From positions 1-64,000 of the forward strand of contig NZ_JANFDG010000024.1 in the NCBI RefSeq assembly GCF_024609765.1: a stretch of 64,000 nucleotides of DNA, in the 5' to 3' direction. Position 1 is the first letter of the stretch, and each line of letters starts with the position of its first letter. Below are positions 8,020 through 37,561 of the stretch, in pieces. Made by a program: the position numbers and the translations under genes. Under the pieces are notes generated by a model that did not search any database, had not been told where the DNA came from, and saw only the letters and a list, made by a program, of their open reading frames with translations. The DNA comes from Shinella pollutisoli (GTDB lineage Bacteria; Pseudomonadota; Alphaproteobacteria; Rhizobiales; Rhizobiaceae).

Positions 8020-8987
8020 TTGCCGCCCTCCTTCTTGTCGAGAAGGCTGAGGACGCCGTTCGGCAGGACCAGCATGAGCGCGATCATGACGCCGGAGTAG
8101 ATGAGGAGCTGGTACTCCTTGGCGATGGAGAGCAGGTCCCAGCCGAAATAGAGCAGGAACGTGCCGAGCATCGGCCCGAAGACATAGCCGAGCCCGCCGA
8201 GGAAGCAGTACAGCATGAAGTTCACGCTGTCGGCGACCACGAAGGAGGACGGATAGATCGACTGCGCGATGGAGGCGAACATGGCGCCGGCGATGCCGCC
8301 GAAGAACGAGGAGATCGCATAGGCGAGGATCCGGAGATAGGCGGTGTTGACGCCGATCGAGGCCGAGAGCTCCTCGTTCTGCTGCAGGCTGCGGCAGAGA
8401 TGGCCGAGCCGCGAGTTCACGATGCGCCAGAGCACGAGGTAGGTGACGACCATCAGCACCGACGCCATGATGTAGAAGCCGAAGCGCGGGTTGGAGAGCG
8501 ATCCGAAGGCCGGAATGATCGTCAGGCCGAAGAGCGAGAGCTCGCCCGGCAGCGGGATCGAGGTGATGCCCTTGGCGCCGCTGGTGATCGGCAGCGCGAG
8601 CGCGGTGAGGCGCGCGACCTCCGTCAGCACCAGCGTCACCATGGCGAAATAGACGCCGCGCAGCCGCAGGATCGGCAGGCCGATCACCACGGAGACGAAC
8701 GCGCAGAAGAGGCCGGCGATCGGCAGCGTCAGCCAGAAGGAGACGCCGGCCTGGGTGACGAGGATCGCCGAGACGTAGCCGCCGATGAGCGCATAGGCGC
8801 CCTGGCCGATATTGATGCGGCCGATGTAGAAGGTGAGCCAGACGCCGGCGGCCGCGACGGACAACAGCGCCACCGAGGTCAGGGTGTAGAAGAAGCCCCA
8901 GCGCCCGGTCGCGTTGATGATGAGCGGCACGAGCACAAAGACGACGAGGAGGAAGGCGGCGAAGCCGAGCAGTTTTTTCGCGTTCAT
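8016..8987 (-). CDS. Branched-chain-type ABC transporter permease (LivM family)
   Basis: Integral membrane permease of 323 residues with about eight to ten hydrophobic segments. The region GRINIGQGAYALIGGYVSAI corresponds to the LivM motif normally reading LNLGHGAFMGIGAYTAAL, and LRGVYFAMVTLVLTEVARL to the conserved RGPYFAIVTLAFAEI loop that contacts the ATPase. The asparagine-leucine to asparagine-isoleucine replacement and the polar Q instead of H suggest a specialised substrate. It lies 4 bases after livH and overlaps livG. Confidence 0.88.
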   Translation of the reverse strand: MNAKKLLGFAAFLLVVFVLVPLIINATGRWGFFYTLTSVALLSVAAAGVWLTFYIGRINIGQGAYALIGGYVSAILVTQAGVSFWLTLPIAGLFCAFVSVVIGLPILRLRGVYFAMVTLVLTEVARLTALALPITSGAKGITSIPLPGELSLFGLTIIPAFGSLSNPRFGFYIMASVLMVVTYLVLWRIVNSRLGHLCRSLQQNEELSASIGVNTAYLRILAYAISSFFGGIAGAMFASIAQSIYPSSFVVADSVNFMLYCFLGGLGYVFGPMLGTFLLYFGWDLLSIAKEYQLLIYSGVMIALMLVLPNGVLSLLDKKEGGK

Positions 8988-26679: not shown

Positions 26680-28611
26680 TCAGAACTCCTCCCATGTATC
26701 CTGCTTGACGGCGGCATTGCCGGCGAAGGCGGCGGCAACCTTGCGGCCGAGCGCGCGGACCGGCGAGGCGGACGGGGACTCCGCACCCGTCGCAGCGCGA
26801 ACGGACGCCGGTGCCTGCCTTGCCCCGGAGAGCTTGAACAGCCTCAGGAGCTCGTTGAGCGACACCACTTCCCGCGAGAGGCTGTGCGTCGCGGCCGTCG
26901 TTTCCTCCACCATGGCGGCGTTCTTCTGCGTGTCCTGGTCCATCTGGTTGACGGCCGTGTTGATCTGCTGGAGACCGGAGGACTGTTCCTGCGCCGCGTC
27001 GACGATGGCGTTGACGTGGCGGTTGATCTCCTGCACCTCGGCGACGATGGTTTCGAGGGCGCGGCCCGTGTCGCCGACGAGCTGCACGCCTTCGCGCACC
27101 TGGCCGTTCGAGGCGGTGATCAGCGTCTTGATCTCCTTGGCGGCATTGGCCGAGCGCTGCGCGAGCTCCCGGACCTCCTGCGCCACGACGGCGAAGCCCT
27201 TGCCGGCCTCGCCGGCGCGGGCCGCTTCCACCCCGGCATTCAGCGCCAGAAGGTTGGTCTGGAAGGCGATCTCGTCGATCACGCCGATGATGCTGTTGAT
27301 CTCGTTGGACGACCTCTCGATCTGCTCCATCGCGGAGACGGCGCGGCGCACGACCTCGCCGGACTGCTCCGCCCCGGTGCGGGTGCGGGCCACGAGCTGG
27401 CCCGCCTCCTGCGCGCGCCTGGTCGAATCCGTGACGGCGGTGGTGATCTGCTCCAGGGCGGCGGCGGTCTCCTCGACGGCAGCGGCCTGCTGCTCGGTGC
27501 GCTTGGCAAGGTCGTCGGCGGCGGAGCGGATTTCGTTGGAGCCGGCCTCGATGCCGCGGGCATTCTCGGCCACCTGCGTCAGCGCCGTCTCCAGCTTCTC
27601 GGCGGAGTTGTTGAAGTCCCTGCGCACCGTATCGAGCGCCTCGGTGAAGGACTGGCTGATGCGGTAGGACACGTCCCCTTCCGACAGCTTCGCAAGGCCG
27701 GCCGCGAGATTGTCGACGGCGAACCTGACCGCTTCCGCTTCCCTCGCCTTCTGCGCCTCGCGCTCGATCCGCTCCTTCTCGCTCAGCGAACGGTTGGCCT
27801 CGGCCTCCTGCTCCAGGCGGATGCGCTCGAGCGCGTTGTCGCGGAACACGGCCACCGCATCGGCCATCTGGCCGACTTCGTCCTTGCGGCCGAGGCCGGC
27901 GATCGCGGCCTGCGTCTCGCCGTCGGCAAGCGTCAGCATGCGCGCACGCAGGCTGTCGATGGGGCGGGTAACGCCGCGCGCGACGATGAACAGCGATGCG
28001 ACGATGCCGGCGATGAAGAGGCCGCCCAGAGCGACGAGCGTCGTCAGGATCGTGCCGTCCGTCCGGAGGGTCATTTCCGCGCTGTGGTCCTTCATGGCCT
28101 GAATGGCCGCCTTGTTCCACTCCCCGACGTCGGTCTTCCATTGCATGACGAGGGCATTGGCCTTGTCGAGCGATGCAAGTCCCTCGTCGTGCCGGCCCTG
28201 CCTTTCGAGGGCGATGGCGTTATCCGTATGCGTGAAGATCGCGTTCGCCTGTTCCTCGGCCTTGCGGATGAACGCGGCGTTCTCCGGCATGAGGGACAAG
28301 GCCTCGTCGAGTTCCTCCCTCAGATCGGACTTCGCCGTCTCGTATGCCTTCAAAGCCTCCTCGGCCTTGGGATTGCCGTTCCCGTAGGTCAGGACCTCGT
28401 AGGCCGTATAGGCGACGGCAACCAGGTCGGCCGGTGCGCGTTCGATCGCGATCGCCGCCATGCTGTCGTGGTTGATGAACTCCCGATAGGTCGTGTCGGT
28501 ATGCTTGTACTCGCTCGCCACGAGGGCCACGCCGCCGATGCCGATCACACAGATCGGGATGAGGACGGACAGGATCTTGGTGCGGATTTTCGTATCTTGC
28601 AGAAAGGACAT
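26680..28611 (-). CDS. Methyl-accepting chemotaxis protein
   Basis: Chemoreceptor of 643 residues. Start at 28611 gives the typical FLQDTKIRTKILSVLIPICV leader with the first membrane helix; GGGGG precedes it. A helical periplasmic domain (about residues 35-185, four-helix-bundle type) is followed by membrane helix 2 (LTTLVALGGLFIAGIVASLF), a HAMP domain and a second HAMP-like linker, then the signalling domain. The conserved tip EIAFQTNLLALNAGVEAARA is followed by GEAGKGFAVVAQEVRELAQR. The protein ends DTWEEF, matching the xWxxF tether for CheR/CheB binding of alphaproteobacterial receptors. The ligand is unknown. It follows the GGDEF-EAL gene by 137 bases on the same strand. Confidence 0.93.
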   Translation of the reverse strand: MSFLQDTKIRTKILSVLIPICVIGIGGVALVASEYKHTDTTYREFINHDSMAAIAIERAPADLVAVAYTAYEVLTYGNGNPKAEEALKAYETAKSDLREELDEALSLMPENAAFIRKAEEQANAIFTHTDNAIALERQGRHDEGLASLDKANALVMQWKTDVGEWNKAAIQAMKDHSAEMTLRTDGTILTTLVALGGLFIAGIVASLFIVARGVTRPIDSLRARMLTLADGETQAAIAGLGRKDEVGQMADAVAVFRDNALERIRLEQEAEANRSLSEKERIEREAQKAREAEAVRFAVDNLAAGLAKLSEGDVSYRISQSFTEALDTVRRDFNNSAEKLETALTQVAENARGIEAGSNEIRSAADDLAKRTEQQAAAVEETAAALEQITTAVTDSTRRAQEAGQLVARTRTGAEQSGEVVRRAVSAMEQIERSSNEINSIIGVIDEIAFQTNLLALNAGVEAARAGEAGKGFAVVAQEVRELAQRSANAAKEIKTLITASNGQVREGVQLVGDTGRALETIVAEVQEINRHVNAIVDAAQEQSSGLQQINTAVNQMDQDTQKNAAMVEETTAATHSLSREVVSLNELLRLFKLSGARQAPASVRAATGAESPSASPVRALGRKVAAAFAGNAAVKQDTWEEF

Positions 28612-28748
28612 GAAGCCCCCTTTCATGAGTGAGCGGTCCCTGCCTTCCCCGTGCCGGAAGGGATCTGAACCTGGAAAACGAAGACATTCACGATGCGAGC
28701 CCACTCATTGGGCATCGTTGGAGGGGACCGTCCCGCTCCCGGCATTCG

Positions 28749-31061
28749 TCAGACGGCCGCGAGCCTCGCCGCGGCCCTGTTCAGTTCCATGACGGTCGCG
28801 GCATCCCTGTCGCTGGGCGCCGGCCGGCCGTAGAAATAGCCCTGGACCTCGCTGCACCCTTCCTCCAGGACCCGGTTCAGATGCGCCTCGGTCTCGACGC
28901 CTTCGGCGACCGTGGTGACGCCAAGCCGCTTGCCGAGGTCGGCAATGGCGCGAACGACGGCCGCCGATTCCGGGCGCTCGACGGCATCCCTCACGAAGGA
29001 ACCGTCGATCTTGATCTTGTCGAAGGGGAAGGCACGCAGATGCGTGAGCGAGGAATAGCCGGTGCCGAAGTCGTCCAGCGCCACCCGCACGCCCATGTCG
29101 CGGATGCGGCGCAGGTCGCCGATGCCGCCGTTTTCGTCGTCGAGCATGGCGGTCTCCGTAACCTCGATCTCCAGCCGGCCGGGCGAAAGGCCGGACCGGG
29201 AGAGCGCCTCCAGCACCGCCGGCGCAATCGTGCCCTTGCCGAGCTGCGCGGCCGAGACGTTGACGGCCACGCGCGCGCCGTCCTCCCAGCCCGCGGCATC
29301 GTTGCAGGCGGTGTTCAGCACGAACTCCCCGAGCTGGTCGATCAGGCCGCTCTGCTCGGCGATCGGGACGAATTCGGCCGGCGAGATCCAGCCGCGTTGC
29401 GGATGATGCCAGCGCACCAGCGCCTCGCGGCTCGTGATCGTCTTGCTGCCGGCGTCGATGATCGGCTGGTAGAAGACGAAGAGGCCGTCCCGCGCCTTCA
29501 GCGCGGCGCGCAGGTCGGCCTGCAGCCGGGCACGCTCCTGGATCCGGATCTCCATGTCGTCGGAGAAGACGCGCCAGGTCCCCTTGCCGGCGGCCTTGGC
29601 CGCGTAAAGAGCGATATCCGCCCGCATCAGCAGGGATTCGCCGCTGTCGCCGTGCATCGGGGCGATCGCGATCCCGATCGACGCGCCGATCTGGACCTGC
29701 CGGTTGTGCTCGAACGCGTAGGGCGCCGACAGCGCATCGATGATCCGTGCCGCAAGCCGCTCCAGCGCCGGCCCGTCGTCACTGGGGACGAGGACGGCAA
29801 ATTCGTCGCCGCCGAGCCGTCCGATCGTTATCGTCGGATCGTCGCAGACGATCCGCAGCCGTTCGGCGACCTGGCGCAGCAGCTCGTCGCCGATGCGGTG
29901 GCCCCGCGTGTCGTTGACCAGCTTGAAGCCGTCAAGATCGATGAACAGCAGGCCGGGCCCGGCGCCCGGCTCGGTAAGGCGCGCGTCCATCCGTTCGCGG
30001 AAGGTGAGGCGGTTGGCGAGGCCCGTCAGCGTGTCGTAGTGGGCGAGCTGCCGGATGCGCCGCTCGGCCTCCACCTCCTTCGTGACGATCGCCCAGGTCA
30101 GCATCGGGCCGAGATAGGCGCCGTCGTCGGCGATGATGGCCGATACCTTCAGGTCCAGCACTTCGGAGCCGAGGTTGATCCTGGCGTTGTGCGGCAGGTT
30201 GCGGGGGTCGGACAGAATGCCGCGCTGATGCTCCGGACGGCGGTGGAAGACGTCGATGGAGGAGCCGATCAGGTCGTCGGCCTTGATCGTCAGCAGATGC
30301 TCGATGCTGCGGATCAGGCTTCTGGAGGTCTCGTTGACGTATGTGATGTCGAAGCTCTCGGGATCGACGGTCATGACCGCCACCGGCATGTCGTCGATCA
30401 TGCGCAGCAGGCGGCTCTGGGCCTCCTGCTTGCGGCGTGCCTCGGTCCGCGCGTTCACCATGCGCGCGAAGATGCCGTAGTTGATGTTGAGGATCACCAG
30501 CATGCCGACGGATACCAGCGCGATGTTGACTGCGGTCGCGACGAAGGTCGGCTGCCCGCTCGCCGCGAAAAAGGCGATGAAGGCGCCGTTGACGATCACC
30601 GCGACGATCACGGCGGCCGCCCGCAGATGCATCAGGCTGAAGATGCAGGAGATCACGGTGATGGCCGTGTAGAAGGCCAGATGCGACTGGGTATAGGCGT
30701 CGCCGTAGGGAAAGAGCAGAAGGGACCAGGCCGTGAAGGCGCAGGCGATGCCGCAGGCGAGATAGGTGATCCGCCCGAGAACGCGCACGGCCCGCTCCGG
30801 CGTGAGGTCGACATGGCGCGACCTGTGCCAGTGCAGCACGCGCCCGGCGCAGACGGCGGTTAGCAGAACCGGTACCCCGGTCGTCAGCCACCAGGGTGCG
30901 ACCCTCATGTGCGTCATGGCGACGGCCCAGGTGCTGGACAGGAGGATGAAATACATCATCGGCATCTGCCGCACGAAGGCGTGGTGCTGCGCCTTCAGCA
31001 ATTCCGGGTTGTCGGCCGCGACCGACATGAAACGCTGTATCCGCTCTTTGACTTGCTTCAT
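28749..31061 (-). CDS. Membrane GGDEF-EAL protein with PAS domain
   Basis: Protein of 770 residues. Six hydrophobic segments between residues about 34 and 197 form an N-terminal membrane sensor of the MASE kind. A PAS domain (220-330) resembles chemoreceptor PAS domains (DMPVAVMTVDPESFDITYVN). The GGDEF motif is fully canonical (417-421) within GRLGGDEFAVL, without an RxxD site. EAL keeps REALVRW, VNVSAAQL, EVTETAML, LDDFGTGYSSL, IKIDGSF and EVQGYFYGRP, so both activities are possible. It lies upstream of the chemoreceptor gene on the same strand and downstream of a possible 73-residue frame. Confidence 0.92.
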   Translation of the reverse strand: MKQVKERIQRFMSVAADNPELLKAQHHAFVRQMPMMYFILLSSTWAVAMTHMRVAPWWLTTGVPVLLTAVCAGRVLHWHRSRHVDLTPERAVRVLGRITYLACGIACAFTAWSLLLFPYGDAYTQSHLAFYTAITVISCIFSLMHLRAAAVIVAVIVNGAFIAFFAASGQPTFVATAVNIALVSVGMLVILNINYGIFARMVNARTEARRKQEAQSRLLRMIDDMPVAVMTVDPESFDITYVNETSRSLIRSIEHLLTIKADDLIGSSIDVFHRRPEHQRGILSDPRNLPHNARINLGSEVLDLKVSAIIADDGAYLGPMLTWAIVTKEVEAERRIRQLAHYDTLTGLANRLTFRERMDARLTEPGAGPGLLFIDLDGFKLVNDTRGHRIGDELLRQVAERLRIVCDDPTITIGRLGGDEFAVLVPSDDGPALERLAARIIDALSAPYAFEHNRQVQIGASIGIAIAPMHGDSGESLLMRADIALYAAKAAGKGTWRVFSDDMEIRIQERARLQADLRAALKARDGLFVFYQPIIDAGSKTITSREALVRWHHPQRGWISPAEFVPIAEQSGLIDQLGEFVLNTACNDAAGWEDGARVAVNVSAAQLGKGTIAPAVLEALSRSGLSPGRLEIEVTETAMLDDENGGIGDLRRIRDMGVRVALDDFGTGYSSLTHLRAFPFDKIKIDGSFVRDAVERPESAAVVRAIADLGKRLGVTTVAEGVETEAHLNRVLEEGCSEVQGYFYGRPAPSDRDAATVMELNRAAARLAAV

Positions 31062-31095
31062 GGATCTCTTGCCGGATGGAGGATCGGACGGATGG

Positions 31096-31317
31096 CTACC
31101 GCTCGGATCGCGGTGCCGTCGTCTCGTTCATGGCAGCCAGCAGGGCGGCGAGGTCCGTCGTGAAGGCTGCGAGCAGCGCCTTCGCCTCCGTCATGCGTTC
31201 GAGCAGATGCCCCGCCGGCATGCCGTCGTTCTCCGGCGTCGTCGTACGGGCCTGCGAAGGCTCGACGGGAAACGCGGAATTCCTGTCACATAAACGCAGG
31301 TGCGGGTGGGCTGGCAT
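31096..31317 (-). CDS. Possible small protein upstream of the GGDEF-EAL gene
   Basis: A 73-codon frame on the same strand as, and 34 bases before, the membrane GGDEF-EAL gene. Its C-terminal half is a helical, alanine/leucine-rich segment (MTEAKALLAAFTTDLAALLA) that could pack against another protein; the N-terminal half is histidine- and proline-rich. GGGG about ten bases before ATG is a weak ribosome site. There is no recognised family. It may be real, perhaps starting only at the internal ATG of MTEAKALL, or chance; the candidate palindromes upstream would also fit a promoter here. Confidence 0.3.
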   Translation of the reverse strand: MPAHPHLRLCDRNSAFPVEPSQARTTTPENDGMPAGHLLERMTEAKALLAAFTTDLAALLAAMNETTAPRSER

Positions 31318-31376
31318 CCGATGACCCCGATGGTTGCGGCGTTGGCGATTGCCGAACCCGCTGTCATGTCGGAGTC

Positions 31377-31411
31377 GATACGATCGTATCTATTCGGTCA
31401 TACTAAAGTAT
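31377..31411. promoter_or_regulatory. Two perfect palindromes upstream of the GGDEF-EAL gene
   Basis: GATACGATCGTATC at 31377-31390 is a perfect 14-bp palindrome. Ten bases later, at 31400-31411, lies ATACTAAAGTAT (arms ATACT/AGTAT). They sit between the PAS-PAS-XRE gene end and the GGDEF-EAL unit, in the promoter region of the latter. Either could be an operator for the PAS-PAS-XRE regulator or another local factor. A third inverted repeat, CGCGCAT-GCAT-ATGCGCG, lies at 31507-31524, 42 bases beyond the regulator's stop, and may be part of its end. Confidence 0.45.
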
Positions 31412-31565
31412 AGGATGCGTCTCTTGCCAATCCTCAAATCCGGACGCGGCGACCGCGAGAAAATGCCGGGGGAAATTGTTGAAGTTCCGTGCAAAATGCC
31501 GGACGTCGCGCATGCATATGCGCGTATATGAATAAAATTCCACAAATCCGTGCGGAGAGGAAGCG

Positions 31566-32591
31566 TCAGGAACAGGCGGCTTTCTGCCGGATCCCGATCC
31601 CGTCCGCGCAATGCGTCAGGACGATCCCGTGGCGTTCGAGCGCCGCGATGATCGCCGTGACCGTCGCATCCTTCATGTGCTCGTCCGTCGCCTCGTAGCG
31701 GCTGATCGTCGCCGCCGAGATGCCGGCCTCCGCCGCAAGCCTTGTCGCCGGCCAGCCGAGCATGGCACGGGCGGCGCGCAGCTGCTGGGGTTTCAGGATG
31801 GAGGTCCGGGTCCGGTCGGTGTCCGTTTCGGTCGTCGCAAGGCGCCAGATCTCCTGGAGCCCGCCAAGCCATTCGATCACGGTTCCGTCCTCGTGGAAGA
31901 CCGGCAGGCAGCGGGCCAGCACCTGCCGGTAGACGCCGTCGGCGTAGCGTAGGCGATAGCGGCTCTCGAAGGGGATGTGGTCGCGCAGGCAGGCCGCCCA
32001 TTTTTCCGCGAGGCCCGCCTGCTCGTCGGGATGGATCATCGCGATCCACCCGGCGGCGTGGCACTCGTCGATCGCCTGGCCGGTCATGGCTTCCCATCCG
32101 GTCAGATCGACGATGGTTCCGGCGGGATCCACGGTCCAGAAGACGCCGGAGGTTGCGTCGGCGAAGGTCGCAAGCCTTGCCCGCGCCTGATAGATGGCGG
32201 CCTTCGCCTCCCGTTCGGCGGACAGGTCCTGGACGAGGCCGGCGAGACGGCCCGTCGAGACCGATCGCTCGGCCGCGACCCTGATCCATCGGGGAGGGCG
32301 ATCGTCCTGGACGACCCTGACGTCGCGCGACACGGAGACGCCCATTCCCGACAGGGAGAAGATGGAGCGCAGGTCCTCGCTGTCTTCGGGATGCATCATG
32401 GAAACCCATCGCTGGACCGTGAGGGCCTCGCCCGTCGAAAGGTTCAGCAGGCGCAGGAAACCGTCGGTGCCGCGGATTTCCCCGGACGCCATGTCGGCAT
32501 TCCAGAATCCGATGCTGATGAACTGCTCGGCCAGCTGCACGTAATGTCGGGACGATATGAAGTTCGGCTGTCTGTTCTGCATCTCATCCAT
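31566..32591 (-). CDS. PAS-PAS-XRE one-component regulator
   Basis: A soluble 341-residue protein with two PAS domains (about 20-125 and 135-250; FISIGFWNADMASGEIRGTD and WTVDPAGTIVDLTGWEAMTG) joined to a C-terminal XRE helix-turn-helix (about 266-326; LKPQQLRAARAMLGWPATRL, AAEAGISAATISRYE). HTH ending ALERHGIVLTHC resembles rhizobial XRE regulators. No kinase or nucleotidyl-cyclase domain is present, so the PAS signal would act directly on DNA binding. Two ATGs (32591 and 32582) are possible; the second follows GGATGAG. Its own promoter carries the same inverted repeat as the kinase promoter, so it probably belongs to the two-component regulon. Confidence 0.85.
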   Translation of the reverse strand: MDEMQNRQPNFISSRHYVQLAEQFISIGFWNADMASGEIRGTDGFLRLLNLSTGEALTVQRWVSMMHPEDSEDLRSIFSLSGMGVSVSRDVRVVQDDRPPRWIRVAAERSVSTGRLAGLVQDLSAEREAKAAIYQARARLATFADATSGVFWTVDPAGTIVDLTGWEAMTGQAIDECHAAGWIAMIHPDEQAGLAEKWAACLRDHIPFESRYRLRYADGVYRQVLARCLPVFHEDGTVIEWLGGLQEIWRLATTETDTDRTRTSILKPQQLRAARAMLGWPATRLAAEAGISAATISRYEATDEHMKDATVTAIIAALERHGIVLTHCADGIGIRQKAACS

Positions 32592-32685
32592 TCGGCCAGC
32601 GGAATGCGACCGACGGTGAACACGATTGGATGCTTTCGCCTGGACGCGCCGCGTTTCTCCATCTGGTCGGTCATGACATCCGGTT

Positions 32686-32731
32686 CGCCTAGCACGGGAG
32701 CCGCGAGGGTGGATATCAGGTGATTACCTGA
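32686..32731 (-). promoter_or_regulatory. Candidate activator-dependent promoter of the PAS-PAS-XRE gene
   Basis: Reading on the minus strand: inverted repeat at 32731-32716 (plus-strand form TCAGGTGATTACCTGA; arms TCAGGT/ACCTGA), 21 bases, then TGCTAGGCG at 32694-32686. If TGCTAG is the -10 hexamer, the repeat is centred near -41, the position of class II activators. The same layout occurs at 35523-35567. The gene's start codon is about 95 bases downstream. Confidence 0.6.
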
Positions 32732-32787
32732 CAGAACGCAAAATACCGATGCGGCCGGCGGGCAAGGGAGATCGTCGGTCCGCCGCG

Positions 32788-33453
32788 CTACGGTTGGATC
32801 AACTGCTCTCTGATCGCATAGCGGACGATCTCCGCCACGGTATGGACGTCGAGCTTTCGCATCGCCGCCATCCGGTGGGAGTCGACGGTCTTGATGCTGA
32901 CATTCAGCCGCGTCGCGATGCTTCTGTTCGTCGCGCCTTCCGCCACCAGCTTCACCACCTCGCGTTCCCTCGGGGTGAGGAGCGGCTGCATGGAAGCGTT
33001 GGGGGCGGGCGCAGGCGCGCTGGAAAAACCGGCCCCCGTCGCGCGTCCGACGAAGGTCCGCCCCTCGGCGACGGCGGAGATGGCCTCCAGAAGGACGACG
33101 TCGTCCTCGTTTTTCGACACCCACCCGCGGGCGCCCGCCTTCAGAAGGTCCATGAGGAGCTGCTGCTCCTCGTGCATCGTGTATATCACGACGCCGAGGC
33201 CGGGAAACTGCCGGCAGAGGCTCCGGGTCACCTCCAGGCCGTTGCACAGGGGAAGGGAGACGTCGAGAACGACGACATCCGGCCGGTGCGCGTGGGCGAG
33301 CTGGAGCGCGGCCTCTCCGTTGTCCGCCTCCGCGCAGACGTGCCAATCGGGATGCGCGGCGAGGCAGGTCCGCATGCCCGCGCGGATCAGCGGATGATCG
33401 TCGGCGATCAGGATACGGATCCCCTTGGCTCCCGGTTCGATATCGTCAGTCAT
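32788..33453 (-). CDS. NarL/FixJ-type response regulator
   Basis: A 221-residue response regulator. The receiver domain (12-130) has acidic pair DD18-19, phospho-acceptor D64 in VVVLDVSLPL, T92 in VIYTMHEE and K115 in GWVSKNED. The LuxR-type helix-turn-helix is at 157-215 (LTPREREVVKLVAEGATNRS, IATRLNVSIKTVDSHRMAAM). Its ATG overlaps the kinase end by 8 bases, so it is the cognate partner. It is a likely binder of the TCAGGTGAyyACCTGA repeats at 32716 and 35552; binding is an inference. Confidence 0.92.
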   Translation of the reverse strand: MTDDIEPGAKGIRILIADDHPLIRAGMRTCLAAHPDWHVCAEADNGEAALQLAHAHRPDVVVLDVSLPLCNGLEVTRSLCRQFPGLGVVIYTMHEEQQLLMDLLKAGARGWVSKNEDDVVLLEAISAVAEGRTFVGRATGAGFSSAPAPAPNASMQPLLTPREREVVKLVAEGATNRSIATRLNVSIKTVDSHRMAAMRKLDVHTVAEIVRYAIREQLIQP

Positions 33454-35173
33454 CCTGGTCTTCTTTCCTGTCGGAGCGCCGGGCGGCTGTGGTTGCGACC
33501 TCTATCGGCAGCCGAAGCCTGACCGTGGTGCCGCGATCCTTCCGGCTGAGGATTTCCACCCGGCCGCCGCTCCGGCGGACGAAATCTACGACCTGGCTCA
33601 ACCCCACGCCGCTGCCCGAGCCCGGGGCCTTGGTCGTGAAGAAGGGGTCGAAGGCCTGATGCCGGACATCGTCCGTCATGCCGACGCCCTCGTCGCCGAT
33701 GCAGATGTCCACCCAGCGCGATACAGCATCGCCGTTTCTCTCTTCGACGACAAGGGTGCCGATCGTGATGGTACCGCCCGACGGCATGGCGTCGCGCGCA
33801 TTTAGGACGAGATTGACGATCGCGGACCGGAACTGTGCCCGATCGGCGAGGCAGGGCGCCTCCTCGTCGGACAATGCCGTGGCGATCCCGGTGCGCGGCC
33901 CCGCCGCCTGCGCGAGGATCGGCAGGGCATCGGAGAGGAGCCGGTTGACGTCGGCCACCTCCGGCCGGGTTTCGGCATTGCGCGATTGCGACAGCAGCTG
34001 GCTGACCATGTCCCGCCCTGCCGAAAGGGTCCGGTCGATCTCGCCGAGCACGGCGAGGGCCTCCTGCCTGCCCTCCATCATCGGCCGCAGCACCGTCACC
34101 CCGGAGCGGATGATCCGCATGAGGTTGCCGATGTCGTGGGCCACCCCGGCGGCGAAGCGCCCTATCGCCTCCAGCCTCTGTGCGTGCTCCAGGCGGATAC
34201 GCGCCCTTTCCTCCCGTTCCCGGCTGCGGTACGACAGCCATTCGAGCGCGAGAAGAAGCAGTTGCAGGATGACGGCGCCGACGATGCCGGCCCGGGCGTG
34301 CGATCGCCATTCCTTCATGGCGTCGGCCTCGTCGAGCGTCATGAGGACGACGACGGGTATGGAGTTCAGGCGCTGGTACCCGATCACGCGGCTGACGCCG
34401 TCGATCGGGCTCCTGCCCCAGTAGACGCCGCTCCTCTGCGCGTGGAGGTAGCTCCGGAACGGCTCGTCGTCCGCGAAGGACACGCCCATGGCCTGCTCGT
34501 TGTGGGGCGAGCGGGCCAGCAACGTCCCGTCCGCGAGCGCAAGCAGGATCGTCCCGCCGCTCATCCAGAGCTGCGTGTAGAAATGCTCGAAATAGAGCGG
34601 CTCCACCGCCGCGACGACGATGCCGCCGAAGGTGCCGCTTTCCGCATTGATCCGCCGGCTGAGGCTGATGAACCAGACGTTGCGCGACCGGCTCTTCAAC
34701 GGGCCGTCGATATGCATCTGAACGGAAGGGTCCGTTTCATGCGCCCTGAAATAGCCGCGGTCGGCGAGGCTGACGCGCGGCGTGCCGGGAAAGTCCGTAT
34801 CGTGGGAGATGAAGCCGTCGGGCCCGATGACAAAGAGGGCGCGGACATAGGGCAGGGTGGTGAGGCGCTTGTGAAGCGCGCCGCGAAACGCCGGATCGTT
34901 GTCGGCAAGCTCCGGTCTCTTGACGATTTCAGCCGCGATGTCCTGCAGGTTGAGGTCGATGGACTGAACCGTCCTGACCAATTGCTCCGACATCACGTGG
35001 ACGAGGTTGGAGACGGTCTTCTCCGCCTCTTCGCGCGCGGCGGCATGGCTCCGCCAGAGCTCGTACGCCAGCAACATGGCGATGCACAAGCTGAGCGCGA
35101 TCGAACGTCTCGACCGGTAGATCTGGCGACCTACGTCCATCCAATTGATCATGAGAAACAATAGCCAAAGCAC
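33446..35173 (-). CDS. Membrane sensor histidine kinase
   Basis: A 575-residue kinase (or 568 from ATG 35152). Membrane helix about 23-38, periplasmic dCache-like double-PAS sensor about 45-280 (VRALFVIGPDGFISHDTDFP), membrane helix about 294-311, then a dimerisation and phospho-acceptor helix with H346 in AAGVAHDIGNLMR, and an ATPase domain with N-box LVLNARDAM, G1 GDEGVGM, F-box FDPFFTTK and G2 GSGVGLSQV. This resembles the HWE-unrelated, DctB/FixL-type HATPase kinases. It is translationally coupled to the response regulator. Start choice is uncertain: GTG 35173 and ATG 35152 lack clear ribosome sites. The stimulus is unknown. Confidence 0.9.
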   Translation of the reverse strand: MLWLLFLMINWMDVGRQIYRSRRSIALSLCIAMLLAYELWRSHAAAREEAEKTVSNLVHVMSEQLVRTVQSIDLNLQDIAAEIVKRPELADNDPAFRGALHKRLTTLPYVRALFVIGPDGFISHDTDFPGTPRVSLADRGYFRAHETDPSVQMHIDGPLKSRSRNVWFISLSRRINAESGTFGGIVVAAVEPLYFEHFYTQLWMSGGTILLALADGTLLARSPHNEQAMGVSFADDEPFRSYLHAQRSGVYWGRSPIDGVSRVIGYQRLNSIPVVVLMTLDEADAMKEWRSHARAGIVGAVILQLLLLALEWLSYRSREREERARIRLEHAQRLEAIGRFAAGVAHDIGNLMRIIRSGVTVLRPMMEGRQEALAVLGEIDRTLSAGRDMVSQLLSQSRNAETRPEVADVNRLLSDALPILAQAAGPRTGIATALSDEEAPCLADRAQFRSAIVNLVLNARDAMPSGGTITIGTLVVEERNGDAVSRWVDICIGDEGVGMTDDVRHQAFDPFFTTKAPGSGSGVGLSQVVDFVRRSGGRVEILSRKDRGTTVRLRLPIEVATTAARRSDRKEDQDD

Positions 35174-35295
35174 ATGGAGATTGCGGCTGTGCTTTAGACG
35201 GTTTTCCGTGCCGCGAGCACCGTCATGTTTGCAAGGCAGGTGTGTGGGGCACCCGCTTGGAGCCTCCCCGGTGATCGCGGTTCACGGCGGATTCC

Positions 35296-35403
35296 TCAAT
35301 TGGCCAGGCGCAACAGGCCGAACGCCAATGCGATCTGGAAGATTATGGACAGGATCACCAGAAAGAGCCAGAAAAGAAGAAAGAACATATATTTGTTTTT
35401 CAT
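35296..35403 (-). CDS. Possible 35-residue single-pass membrane peptide
   Basis: An ORF too short for routine gene calling. It starts at ATG 35403 (MKNKYMFFLLFWLFLVILSI followed by IFQIALAFGLLRLAN), with GGAG about ten bases before. Nearly the whole chain is one hydrophobic helix with a positive N-terminus, so a membrane peptide is plausible. It lies about 120 bases downstream of the shared inverted-repeat promoter at 35523-35567 and before the kinase gene, so it would be the first gene of that operon. A longer frame from 35538 would overlap the predicted promoter and is not preferred. Function unknown; a small modulator of the kinase is a guess. Confidence 0.45.
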   Translation of the reverse strand: MKNKYMFFLLFWLFLVILSIIFQIALAFGLLRLAN

Positions 35404-35522
35404 CGGGCGAGGTCTCCGCCATTGAGTGACATCCGTGGTCGTTGCTGCGCGTTTCGACCGCGATATTCGGATGCCGGCAAAATGAACTTCATGAATTGCG
35501 TCGATCTCCTCCCTCCGTGCGC

Positions 35523-35567
35523 CGCCTAGCATAGGCATCCGGCCGGGAACATCAGGTGACCACCTGA
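35523..35567 (-). promoter_or_regulatory. Candidate activator-dependent promoter of the kinase/regulator operon
   Basis: On the minus strand: inverted repeat at 35567-35552 (plus-strand form TCAGGTGACCACCTGA), 20 bases, then TGCTAGGCG at 35531-35523. It repeats the design at 32686-32731 with only two changed bases in the repeat core and the spacer one shorter. It would drive the small membrane peptide and the kinase/response-regulator genes. Confidence 0.62.
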
Positions 35568-35688
35568 TAGGGGGCGGACGCGTGCGGATTAATCGGCGAT
35601 CGATGCCGCCGATGCCAACCTCGGCGCGCAGGACGCCGGCAGCGCCCGGAACCGGCGTGCGACGCGGGCCTTCCTTTCACTGCTTTTG

Positions 35689-35712
35689 TGATCGTTTTTG
35701 ATCGATCTTTGC
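35689..35712 (+). promoter_or_regulatory. Direct-repeat motif before the DeoR-type gene
   Basis: GATCGTTTTT at 35690-35699 is followed by GATCGATC at 35700-35707, a 10-bp-spaced direct repeat about 95 bases before the DeoR-type gene. DeoR-family proteins often bind repeated sites of this kind, so it may be an operator of that regulator. Evidence is the motif and position only. Confidence 0.3.
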
Positions 35713-35800
35713 TGAATGATCTCGATTGCCGGCCGGATCGGCCCGCGATCCCGTTGATATGCCGCAACGCCTTCGTGATTGTGCCCGCAAAGGAGATCAA

Positions 35801-37561
35801 ATGATCAAAGAGCAGCGACATGCGAGGATTCTTTCCCTGCTGCGCCAGCAGGGCGTGGTGAGCATGGAGGAATTGCGGCGCTTCATGCCCGGCGTCGCCG
35901 CCGTGACGATCCGGCGCGACCTCGTCCAGCTCGACGAAGCCGGGGCGCTCCGGCGCCGTCATGGCGGCGCGGTGCTGCCGGACGATACGCTCGTACGCTC
36001 CAAGGGTGCGCTGCCGGGGGCGGAAGCGAACTCGCTCGCCTCCGACCTCGATTCGCTCAATGCGGTCGTCCTGCCGCCGATCTCCGGCCGGGGAAGCGAG
36101 GTGCTCCGGCGGGAGATCGTGCGCCGCGGCATCCCCTTCATCGCCGAAAGCGCGTCCCAGCCGGGCGGGGCCTATCTCGGCCCGGACAACTTCGCCGCAG
36201 GCGTGGAGCTCGGCCGTCTCGCGGCCCGCGAGGCCGGCGACGGGCCGCTCTCGATGCTGGTGATCGGCCTTGCCGAATTGCCCAACACCCGCGAGCGCGT
36301 GGCGGGTTTCGAGGCGGGCCTGGCCGAGGCGGGCGTCAAGCCGGCCGCGGTGCACCGCGTCAACGGCCAGGGCAGCTACCGGGTCAGCCTGCGCGTCGCC
36401 CACGACGCCTTCGCGGCCGACGAGACGATCAACCTGGTCTTCGCGGTGAACGATCATGCAGCCATAGCGGGGATCGAGGCGGCGGAGCGCCTGGACAGGC
36501 GGGTCGCGGTCTATTCGATGGGGGGCGAGAGCCCCGCCTTCATGGCGCGGCTCGCCGAGGCCGGCCCGTTGCGCGCGGTCGGCGCGCTGTTTCCCGAAGT
36601 GGTCGGGCGCCTCGGCATCGACATGGCCGTGCTCGGCGTGCTCGGCCAGCCGCTCGCCGACACGATCACGCCGCACGCCATCGTCACGCCCGGGACGCTG
36701 GCGGACTACTTCGAGGACACGGCCGATGGCTGGCGCCTCAGGGAGGATGTGCTGGAACGGCTGAGCAACGTCCGCCCCGGCTTCCAGACGAAGCTGCTGC
36801 GGTCGCGCCGGATCGGCTTCCTGCCGCACTATCCCGCGCATGACTGGTATCGCAGCATCGCCAGCGCCATGCAGGTGCGCTGCCAGGCCTATGGTGCGAC
36901 GCTCGTCATCTCGCCGCCGCATCACGGCATCTCGGCGGAGATCGCCCGCCTGCGGCGCGAGCTGGCCCAGAGTGCCGCACAGCTCGTGCAGCCCGGCACG
37001 GTGGTGGCGCTCAACGAGGGACAGGCGAACGTCTTCCTCGCGGAGGAGCTGCGAAGCCTCGCGGCGACCCGGCCGGAGCGGCTGCAGGGCGTGACCGTGC
37101 TGACCAATTCCTTCGACGTCCTGCACGCGCTGGAGGACGTGTCCGCGCTCAAGGTGATCCTGACGGCCGGGGAATACCAGAAGGCCGACCGGTGCCTCGT
37201 CGGCCCGAGCCTGGGGGCGATCTTCGAGCGGGTCCGCCCGCATCTCGCCTTCATCGCGGTCGACGGCGTGACCCCCGGCTTCGGCCTGTCGTCGCTCGAC
37301 GAGCGGCGCGCGCTGGCCGCCCGGCGCTTCATCAACGCGGCGCAGACCGGCATCGTGCTCGCCGACAGCGTCGCGCTCGGCTCCGACGCCAACCACCACA
37401 TCGCCGGCGTCTCGCAGATCCGCGCCGTGCTCACGGACGACGGCGCATTGCCCGAGGAACGGCAGCGTTTCCGCTCGGTCGGCGTCGATGTGCTGATCGC
37501 GGGCGAAGTGCTTCCCGAACAGGCCTTCGAGCCGGGCGGGAACTATCGAAGTCAAACCTGA
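35801..37561 (+). CDS. DeoR-type regulator fused to a periplasmic-binding-protein-like domain
   Basis: A 586-residue protein with three parts: a DeoR winged helix-turn-helix (residues 1-58; QRHARILSLLRQQGVVSMEE, AVTIRRDLVQLDEAGALRRR), a sugar-binding-protein-like domain (about 85-335; ESASQPGGAYLGPDNFAAGV and LVFAVNDHAAIAGIEAAERL) and a DeoR C-terminal sensor domain (about 345-575; VTVLTNSFDVLHALEDV, FIAVDGVTPGFGLSSLDERR, TGIVLADSVALGSDAN). Ordinary DeoR proteins are about 250 residues and lack the middle domain, so two ligand pockets are possible. ATG 35801 follows AAGGAGA. It is 27 bases from the binding-protein gene and heads the catabolic operon, so it is likely its regulator. Confidence 0.85.
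   Translation: MIKEQRHARILSLLRQQGVVSMEELRRFMPGVAAVTIRRDLVQLDEAGALRRRHGGAVLPDDTLVRSKGALPGAEANSLASDLDSLNAVVLPPISGRGSEVLRREIVRRGIPFIAESASQPGGAYLGPDNFAAGVELGRLAAREAGDGPLSMLVIGLAELPNTRERVAGFEAGLAEAGVKPAAVHRVNGQGSYRVSLRVAHDAFAADETINLVFAVNDHAAIAGIEAAERLDRRVAVYSMGGESPAFMARLAEAGPLRAVGALFPEVVGRLGIDMAVLGVLGQPLADTITPHAIVTPGTLADYFEDTADGWRLREDVLERLSNVRPGFQTKLLRSRRIGFLPHYPAHDWYRSIASAMQVRCQAYGATLVISPPHHGISAEIARLRRELAQSAAQLVQPGTVVALNEGQANVFLAEELRSLAATRPERLQGVTVLTNSFDVLHALEDVSALKVILTAGEYQKADRCLVGPSLGAIFERVRPHLAFIAVDGVTPGFGLSSLDERRALAARRFINAAQTGIVLADSVALGSDANHHIAGVSQIRAVLTDDGALPEERQRFRSVGVDVLIAGEVLPEQAFEPGGNYRSQT

Follow-up and report, generated by a model that had tools for sequence, protein, structure and literature searches.

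A palindrome-plus-box element beside a NarL-type two-component system in Shinella pollutisoli: a candidate operator with a small predicted regulon

Genes and paired palindromes of the locus

The stretch of DNA analysed here (the window; 64,000 nucleotides of Shinella pollutisoli, contig NZ_JANFDG010000024.1 of assembly GCF_024609765.1) carries a two-component system with two copies of the same inverted repeat beside it, which we considered as candidate operators of its NarL/FixJ-type response regulator. The minus-strand gene order is a possible 35-amino-acid single-transmembrane peptide, the kinase, the regulator, a PAS-PAS-helix-turn-helix (HTH) protein of XRE type, a GGDEF-EAL protein and a HAMP-type chemoreceptor. 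Domain searches confirmed the kinase, regulator and PAS-PAS-XRE genes that a preliminary description of the locus had named. The sensor histidine kinase (33446..35173) has dCache and HATPase_c domains and a GVAHDIGN box, the motif from which we take the role of His346. The regulator (32788..33453) consists of a receiver (PF00072, 94 bits, cut-off 30.2) followed by a GerE (LuxR) HTH domain (PF00196, 60.8 bits, cut-off 23.5), and its phospho-acceptor Asp64, in VVVLDV, aligns with an Asp of NarL. It stays below the NCBIfam cut-offs for PRK15369 (presumably SsrB; 187/242 bits), MctR (152/300), MadR (139/300) and UvrY/SirA/GacA (124/280). The PAS-PAS-XRE gene, predicted to be the most conserved target, occupies 31566..32591. 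The small membrane peptide of the preliminary description found no such support: the open reading frame (ORF; 35296..35403, minus strand, MKNKYMFF...) has a longer 80-amino-acid reading (35296-35538) that gave neither a Pfam or NCBIfam match nor a tblastn match in 14 loci of relatives, and the 35-amino-acid form had no match in the locus of the paralogous system on contig C3 (L054).

Palindrome A, TCAGGTGGTCACCTGA (35552..35567, minus strand), lies upstream of the small ORF and the kinase and regulator genes, and palindrome B, TCAGGTAATCACCTGA (32716..32731, minus strand), between the regulator and PAS-PAS-XRE genes. Each is followed on the minus strand by TGCTAGGCG, a putative -10 region, after 20 bp for A (35523..35531) and 21 bp for B (32686..32694), in agreement with the preliminary description. 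The exact pattern TCAGGTNNNNACCTGA occurs twice in the window, for which a first-order Markov model of the window predicts ~0.001 copies (P for two or more ~5e-7), and the genome search that the description had suggested returned only these two copies in 5.22 Mb, with 0.08 expected from the same model and none for a reversed-pattern control. With one mismatch there were 4 sites genome-wide versus 1 control site, and the composite pattern GCCTAGCA-N19-24-GGTNNNNACC recovered the same two genome sites, with 1 control match. At up to three mismatches, the window count was at background (10 found versus 13.9 expected); therefore, only perfect palindromes stand out. The probability of TGCTA at +20/+21 of a random window position is 2e-4, and both palindromes have it there. 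A loosened pattern, TCRGGTNNNNACCYGA (the R/Y form), yielded three copies genome-wide, all adjoining the two paralogous two-component systems of this genome, and none for the control; because ~0.9 copies are expected by chance, it is their location and not their number that is informative.

Relatives of the system and recurrence of the element

Close relatives of the regulator are rare. Counting the own genome, they were found in at least 2 of 151 family genomes (E<=1e-55, at most 19 candidates per genome scored), at least 4 of 394 genomes (E<=1e-48, at most 7 scored) and 2 of 21 genomes of the genus (E<=1e-45). The own genome holds one paralogue of the two-component system at E<=1e-45, that on contig C3, whose regulator is 59% identical. 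The named relatives are Shinella HZN7, WSC3-e and WSD5-1 (all on plasmids), Microvirga VF16 and a Rhizobiaceae metagenome-assembled genome (MAG; JAJFMR010000043.1, taken as contig C236 of genome G457, which is 76% complete). Kinase, regulator and PAS-PAS-XRE gene stand in a row at HZN7, WSC3-e, WSD5-1, C3 and in a further genome, G015, and at the three named Shinella plasmid loci a gene annotated as a PAS-type chemoreceptor lies beyond the PAS-PAS-XRE gene. In a nine-row regulator tree, the window sequence groups with C3, HZN7, WSC3-e and G015 (100/99) and the MAG falls across the split, as drawn with midpoint rooting only.

Palindrome and box recur together at these relatives. Between the regulator and PAS-PAS-XRE genes lie TCGGGTATGCACCCGA at C3, TCAGGTATATACCCGA at HZN7 and TCGGGTGTATACCCGA at WSC3-e, WSD5-1 and G015, in each case 20 bp before TGCTA. 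Downstream of the MAG regulator, a degenerate copy, TAGGGTGAACACCGGA, stands 20 bp before TGCTAGGCAG; the locus has 5 loose matches in all, this one included, versus 2.2 expected. Upstream of the MAG kinase lies TCGGGTAAACACCCGA, without TGCTA. Altogether, TGCTA at +20/+21 accompanies 8 of the 10 palindromes adjoining regulator genes (window A and B, C3, HZN7, WSC3-e, WSD5-1, G015 and MAG downstream), the exceptions being the MAG upstream copy and one in genome G764, and the box is present at 7 of the 8 R/Y copies adjoining these regulators. Since C3, HZN7 and WSC3-e have flanking sequence in common, it is the contrast with the window and the MAG that carries weight.

The G764 palindrome, TCGGGGTAGACCCCGA (TCGGGG..CCCCGA; L063 6652-6667), is GC-rich and lies 31 nucleotides past a 44%-identical regulator, in a 14-kb stretch in which no kinase or XRE relative was found. 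It may be an operator of the same family with a further base change; it is suggestive, and we set it apart from the element described here. A palindrome in genome G553 was left uncounted, lying ~1.36 kb past its regulator. In the MAG locus, the downstream palindrome and its TGCTAGG are followed by a strong hairpin with a T-rich tail (L033 2803-2880; -36.9 kcal/mol, z -2.45), in a stretch with no evident plus-strand gene; a short RNA or an operon terminator are possible readings. An Rfam scan of the window, the MAG locus and the C3 locus gave no matches.

The specificity of the two parts was assessed in other genomes. A search of 397 order genomes found the exact palindrome in 52, mostly as a single copy (reversed control, 8 genomes), and at 30 order loci carrying it no regulator relative (E<=1e-10) was found within ~1.5 kb on each side as a rule. 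None of the 30 exact palindromes inspected at order loci elsewhere had TGCTA at +20/21 on either strand. A further 21 loci contained 4 R/Y palindromes, likewise all without it. Taken alone, the palindrome does not mark out these systems; with its TGCTA box, it does so among the copies inspected. A broader pattern, TCRGGKNNNNMCCYGA, was dropped as evidence: it matched in 23 of 24 genomes, mostly with counts near the reversed control, the outliers being G457 (7 versus 0) and G000 (5 versus 0), few of whose extra sites were inspected.

Predicted recognition and mode of regulation

These comparisons suggest that the NarL-family regulator activates the PAS-PAS-XRE gene as well as, in this locus and possibly also in the MAG, its own operon, a reading to which we assign a probability of roughly 0.7. 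Judging from the domains, the dCache kinase would sense a signal and phosphorylate the regulator, a dimer of which would bind TCAGGTNNNNACCTGA just upstream of a weak promoter with TGCTAGG as its presumed -10 region, and would act from approximately a class II position. Through the conserved site B (palindrome B) it would activate the PAS-PAS-XRE gene, and through the less conserved site A (palindrome A) also its own small-ORF/kinase/regulator operon. In a speculative last step, the PAS-PAS-XRE protein would probably relay the signal to the downstream genes for the GGDEF-EAL protein (28749..31061, minus strand; 77% match at the DNA level to the EAL gene at HZN7) and the methyl-accepting chemotaxis protein of HAMP type (26680..28704, minus strand, by domain search). 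We infer that both genes belong to the circuit, the former from synteny; at HZN7, an EAL gene and a chemoreceptor gene, the latter of a different type, likewise lie downstream. The comparisons partly support the claim that the regulator binds both repeats, in that the unit that the encoded NarL-type regulator is predicted to recognise recurs at the paralogue and at relatives. A class II activator is centred near -41, where it overlaps the -35 region. The class II position proposed in the preliminary description would fit the spacing to TGCTAGG (palindrome centre at ~-42 to -44 by hand count, if TGCTAGG is the -10), and the promoter that goes with it is less well borne out, as set out below. 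A terminator-like site between regulator and palindrome B (32759-32745; one of 6 such sites in the scan versus 2.7 expected) would separate two transcripts, in weak agreement with a promoter of its own for the PAS-PAS-XRE gene.

Several observations weigh against this reading. The bare palindrome is unspecific: of 19 genus genomes that lack a close regulator, 7 contain 12 R/Y copies between them, and in G015, G457 and G764 one R/Y copy each, that of G457 being an exact TCAGGTCGTAACCTGA, lies elsewhere than beside the regulator. WSC3-e and WSD5-1 are identical in the intergenic stretch and G015 nearly so, so that the loci that are independent number ~5. In the MAG, the downstream copy does not fit the R/Y form, and its position and box were part of the reason for counting it. 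Nothing comparable was found at the loci of the distant regulators of G553 (42%) and Microvirga (45%). No counterpart of site A was found upstream of the kinase at C3, HZN7, WSC3-e or G015. Finally, TGCTAGGCG makes a poor -10: its CTAGGC matches at 3 of 6 positions the CTATAT of the rhizobial sigma-70 consensus, CTTGAC-N17-CTATAT as given in PMC2873474, and a scan of 31000-36100 found no sigma-70-like promoter. Such a match suits an activator-dependent promoter, short of proof. A sigma-54 reading of the TGC was rejected, as the GG-N10-GC spacing does not fit at site A by eye.

The preliminary description had further claimed that the regulator controls its own operon. Site A and the one upstream site in the MAG speak for this claim; the absence of TGCTA from the MAG site and a different palindrome at the plasmid-type relatives speak against its generality. 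Indeed, C3, HZN7, WSC3-e, WSD5-1 and G015 have AGTCA-N6-TGACT upstream of the kinase instead (L045 4049-4064, L046 and L047 4102-4117, L054 9361-9376, L065 9829-9844). This motif, not found as an exact match in the window, lies next to a small gene with HTH annotation at HZN7 and WSC3-e and is probably the operator of that HTH protein. An ancestral upstream site may have been lost in the plasmid-type group, a separate gain being an alternative. On present comparisons, the PAS-PAS-XRE gene appears to be the strongest conserved target and self-control the less conserved one. Palindrome A also faces a divergent sugar operon, whose HZN7 relative lies on a different plasmid from the HZN7 two-component genes. 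Because that relative has no R/Y palindrome in 14.3 kb and its match begins at window position 35683, past palindrome A, the palindrome is most plausibly assigned to the two-component genes, and probably not to the sugar operon. The first gene of this neighbouring cluster (35801-37561, plus strand) encodes a DeoR-type HTH and a DeoRC sensor domain with a periplasmic-binding-protein-like domain between them; the HZN7 relative is annotated as a sugar ATP-binding cassette (ABC) transporter, and in the plasmid collection this cluster is present on Sinorhizobium replicons too.

The weakness of TGCTAGG as a -10 and the lack of a sigma-70-like promoter in the scanned region would also be expected if the regulator bound but repressed, or if TGCTAGG were bound by a second factor, with the promoter elsewhere. 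The 20-21 bp spacing, fixed across diverged loci, is that of class II activator placement, and we hold this alternative to be unlikely, though one to be reckoned with.

It is more doubtful that the palindromes are bound by the PAS-PAS-XRE protein itself, as a repressor or activator of its own gene and of the two-component operon. XRE-type proteins commonly bind palindromes, and in the window and at C3, HZN7, WSC3-e, WSD5-1 and G015 there is a palindrome ahead of the PAS-PAS-XRE gene. However, the MAG locus keeps its regulator and two palindromes, and its genome gave no PAS-PAS-XRE match at E<=1e-10, which its incompleteness makes weak evidence in favour of the regulator. Moreover, the R/Y palindrome was not found in any of seven loci (L049-L053, L055 and L056; 11-12 kb each) with PAS-PAS-XRE relatives of 30-35% identity and no regulator match, drawn from 5 of 9 non-Shinella plasmid records with such a relative and from 2 other genomes. 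L049 has a partial kinase match, to the kinase core only, and L055 a loose non-R/Y palindrome, TCCGGCTCGACCCGGA, at 8490. These relatives are distant, and their own operator could have changed, which weakens the case against the XRE protein. The site thus seems to track the regulator, as a correlation only.

A role of the palindromes in RNA, as hairpins or terminators, and not as DNA sites is very improbable: perfect 6-bp inverted repeats can fold and the G764 copy is GC-rich, but no copy runs straight into four or more T, the 6 terminator-like sites found in 31000-36100 all lie off the palindromes (one stem ends ~13 bases before palindrome B), site A is upstream of the whole operon, and the HZN7 copy breaks the symmetry (TCAGGT..ACCCGA) yet keeps position and box. 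Chance repeats without function, to which the background-level three-mismatch count and the 52 genomes with a bare palindrome might point, are refuted in practice by the recurrence of the element at C3, HZN7, WSC3-e/G015 and the MAG; the improbability of two exact copies in 64 kb and a TGCTA unit confined to these regulators among the copies inspected also speak against them.

If the regulator is the activator at these sites, the plasmid-type paralogue on the other contig would use a sister site that has G at position 3 of its half-sites, where the window has A. All four window half-sites have A at this position and those of C3, WSC3-e and the MAG upstream copy have G; in the recognition helix, opposite NarL Lys192, which we take to be base-contacting, the window regulator carries Met195 and those of C3, HZN7, WSC3-e, G015 and the MAG carry Thr. 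The HZN7 operator combines one A and one G half-site, though its regulator has Thr. With a single Met-bearing regulator and a mixed HZN7 operator, the correlation of residue and operator is therefore put forward only as a hypothesis. On this basis we tentatively propose, as a rather speculative extension, that the two paralogous systems are insulated by the symmetrical TCAGGT/TCGGGT change at position 3, matched by Met195/Thr, each regulon comprising one or two promoters.

Comparison with known systems

A limited literature search turned up no publication on this two-component system, and the element provides a concrete candidate operator for an uncharacterised NarL-family regulator. The predicted regulon is unusually small, each system having one or two sites that combine palindrome and box. 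In addition, the operators of the two paralogues are a single base apart in each half-site, which makes the pair a compact natural test of regulator-paralogue insulation.

The closest solved regulator is NarL of Escherichia coli (1a04), which likewise has a receiver and a GerE/LuxR HTH domain and is alignable through the recognition helix. NarL binds inverted repeats as a dimer, its site being a 7-2-7 inverted repeat, whereas the window operator has a 6-4-6 arrangement and its regulator Met195 where NarL Lys192 aligns. GacA is another NarL-family regulator. Its upstream palindrome, TGTAAG-N6-CTTACA, with sites at -75 and -196, serves the small RNA genes rsmY-rsmZ (PMC4950607). GacA resembles the window system in having a palindromic upstream site and differs in its sequence, in sites lying further upstream and in its main targets, small RNA genes there versus a gene for a protein regulator here. 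Among rhizobia, the RpuS/RpuR two-component system of Sinorhizobium fredii requires a conserved promoter motif for activation (PMC9100948); that motif is an imperfect direct repeat and the kinase is of the SLC5/STAC type, unlike the palindrome and dCache kinase of the window. The same paper mentions MctR 18 times; against the MctR model, the window regulator reaches 152 bits for a cut-off of 300. Set beside these systems, the proposed circuit is itself ordinary, with a NarL-type regulator and a palindromic operator near its own genes; what is rare about it is the very small size of the predicted regulon and the presence of two paralogous systems.

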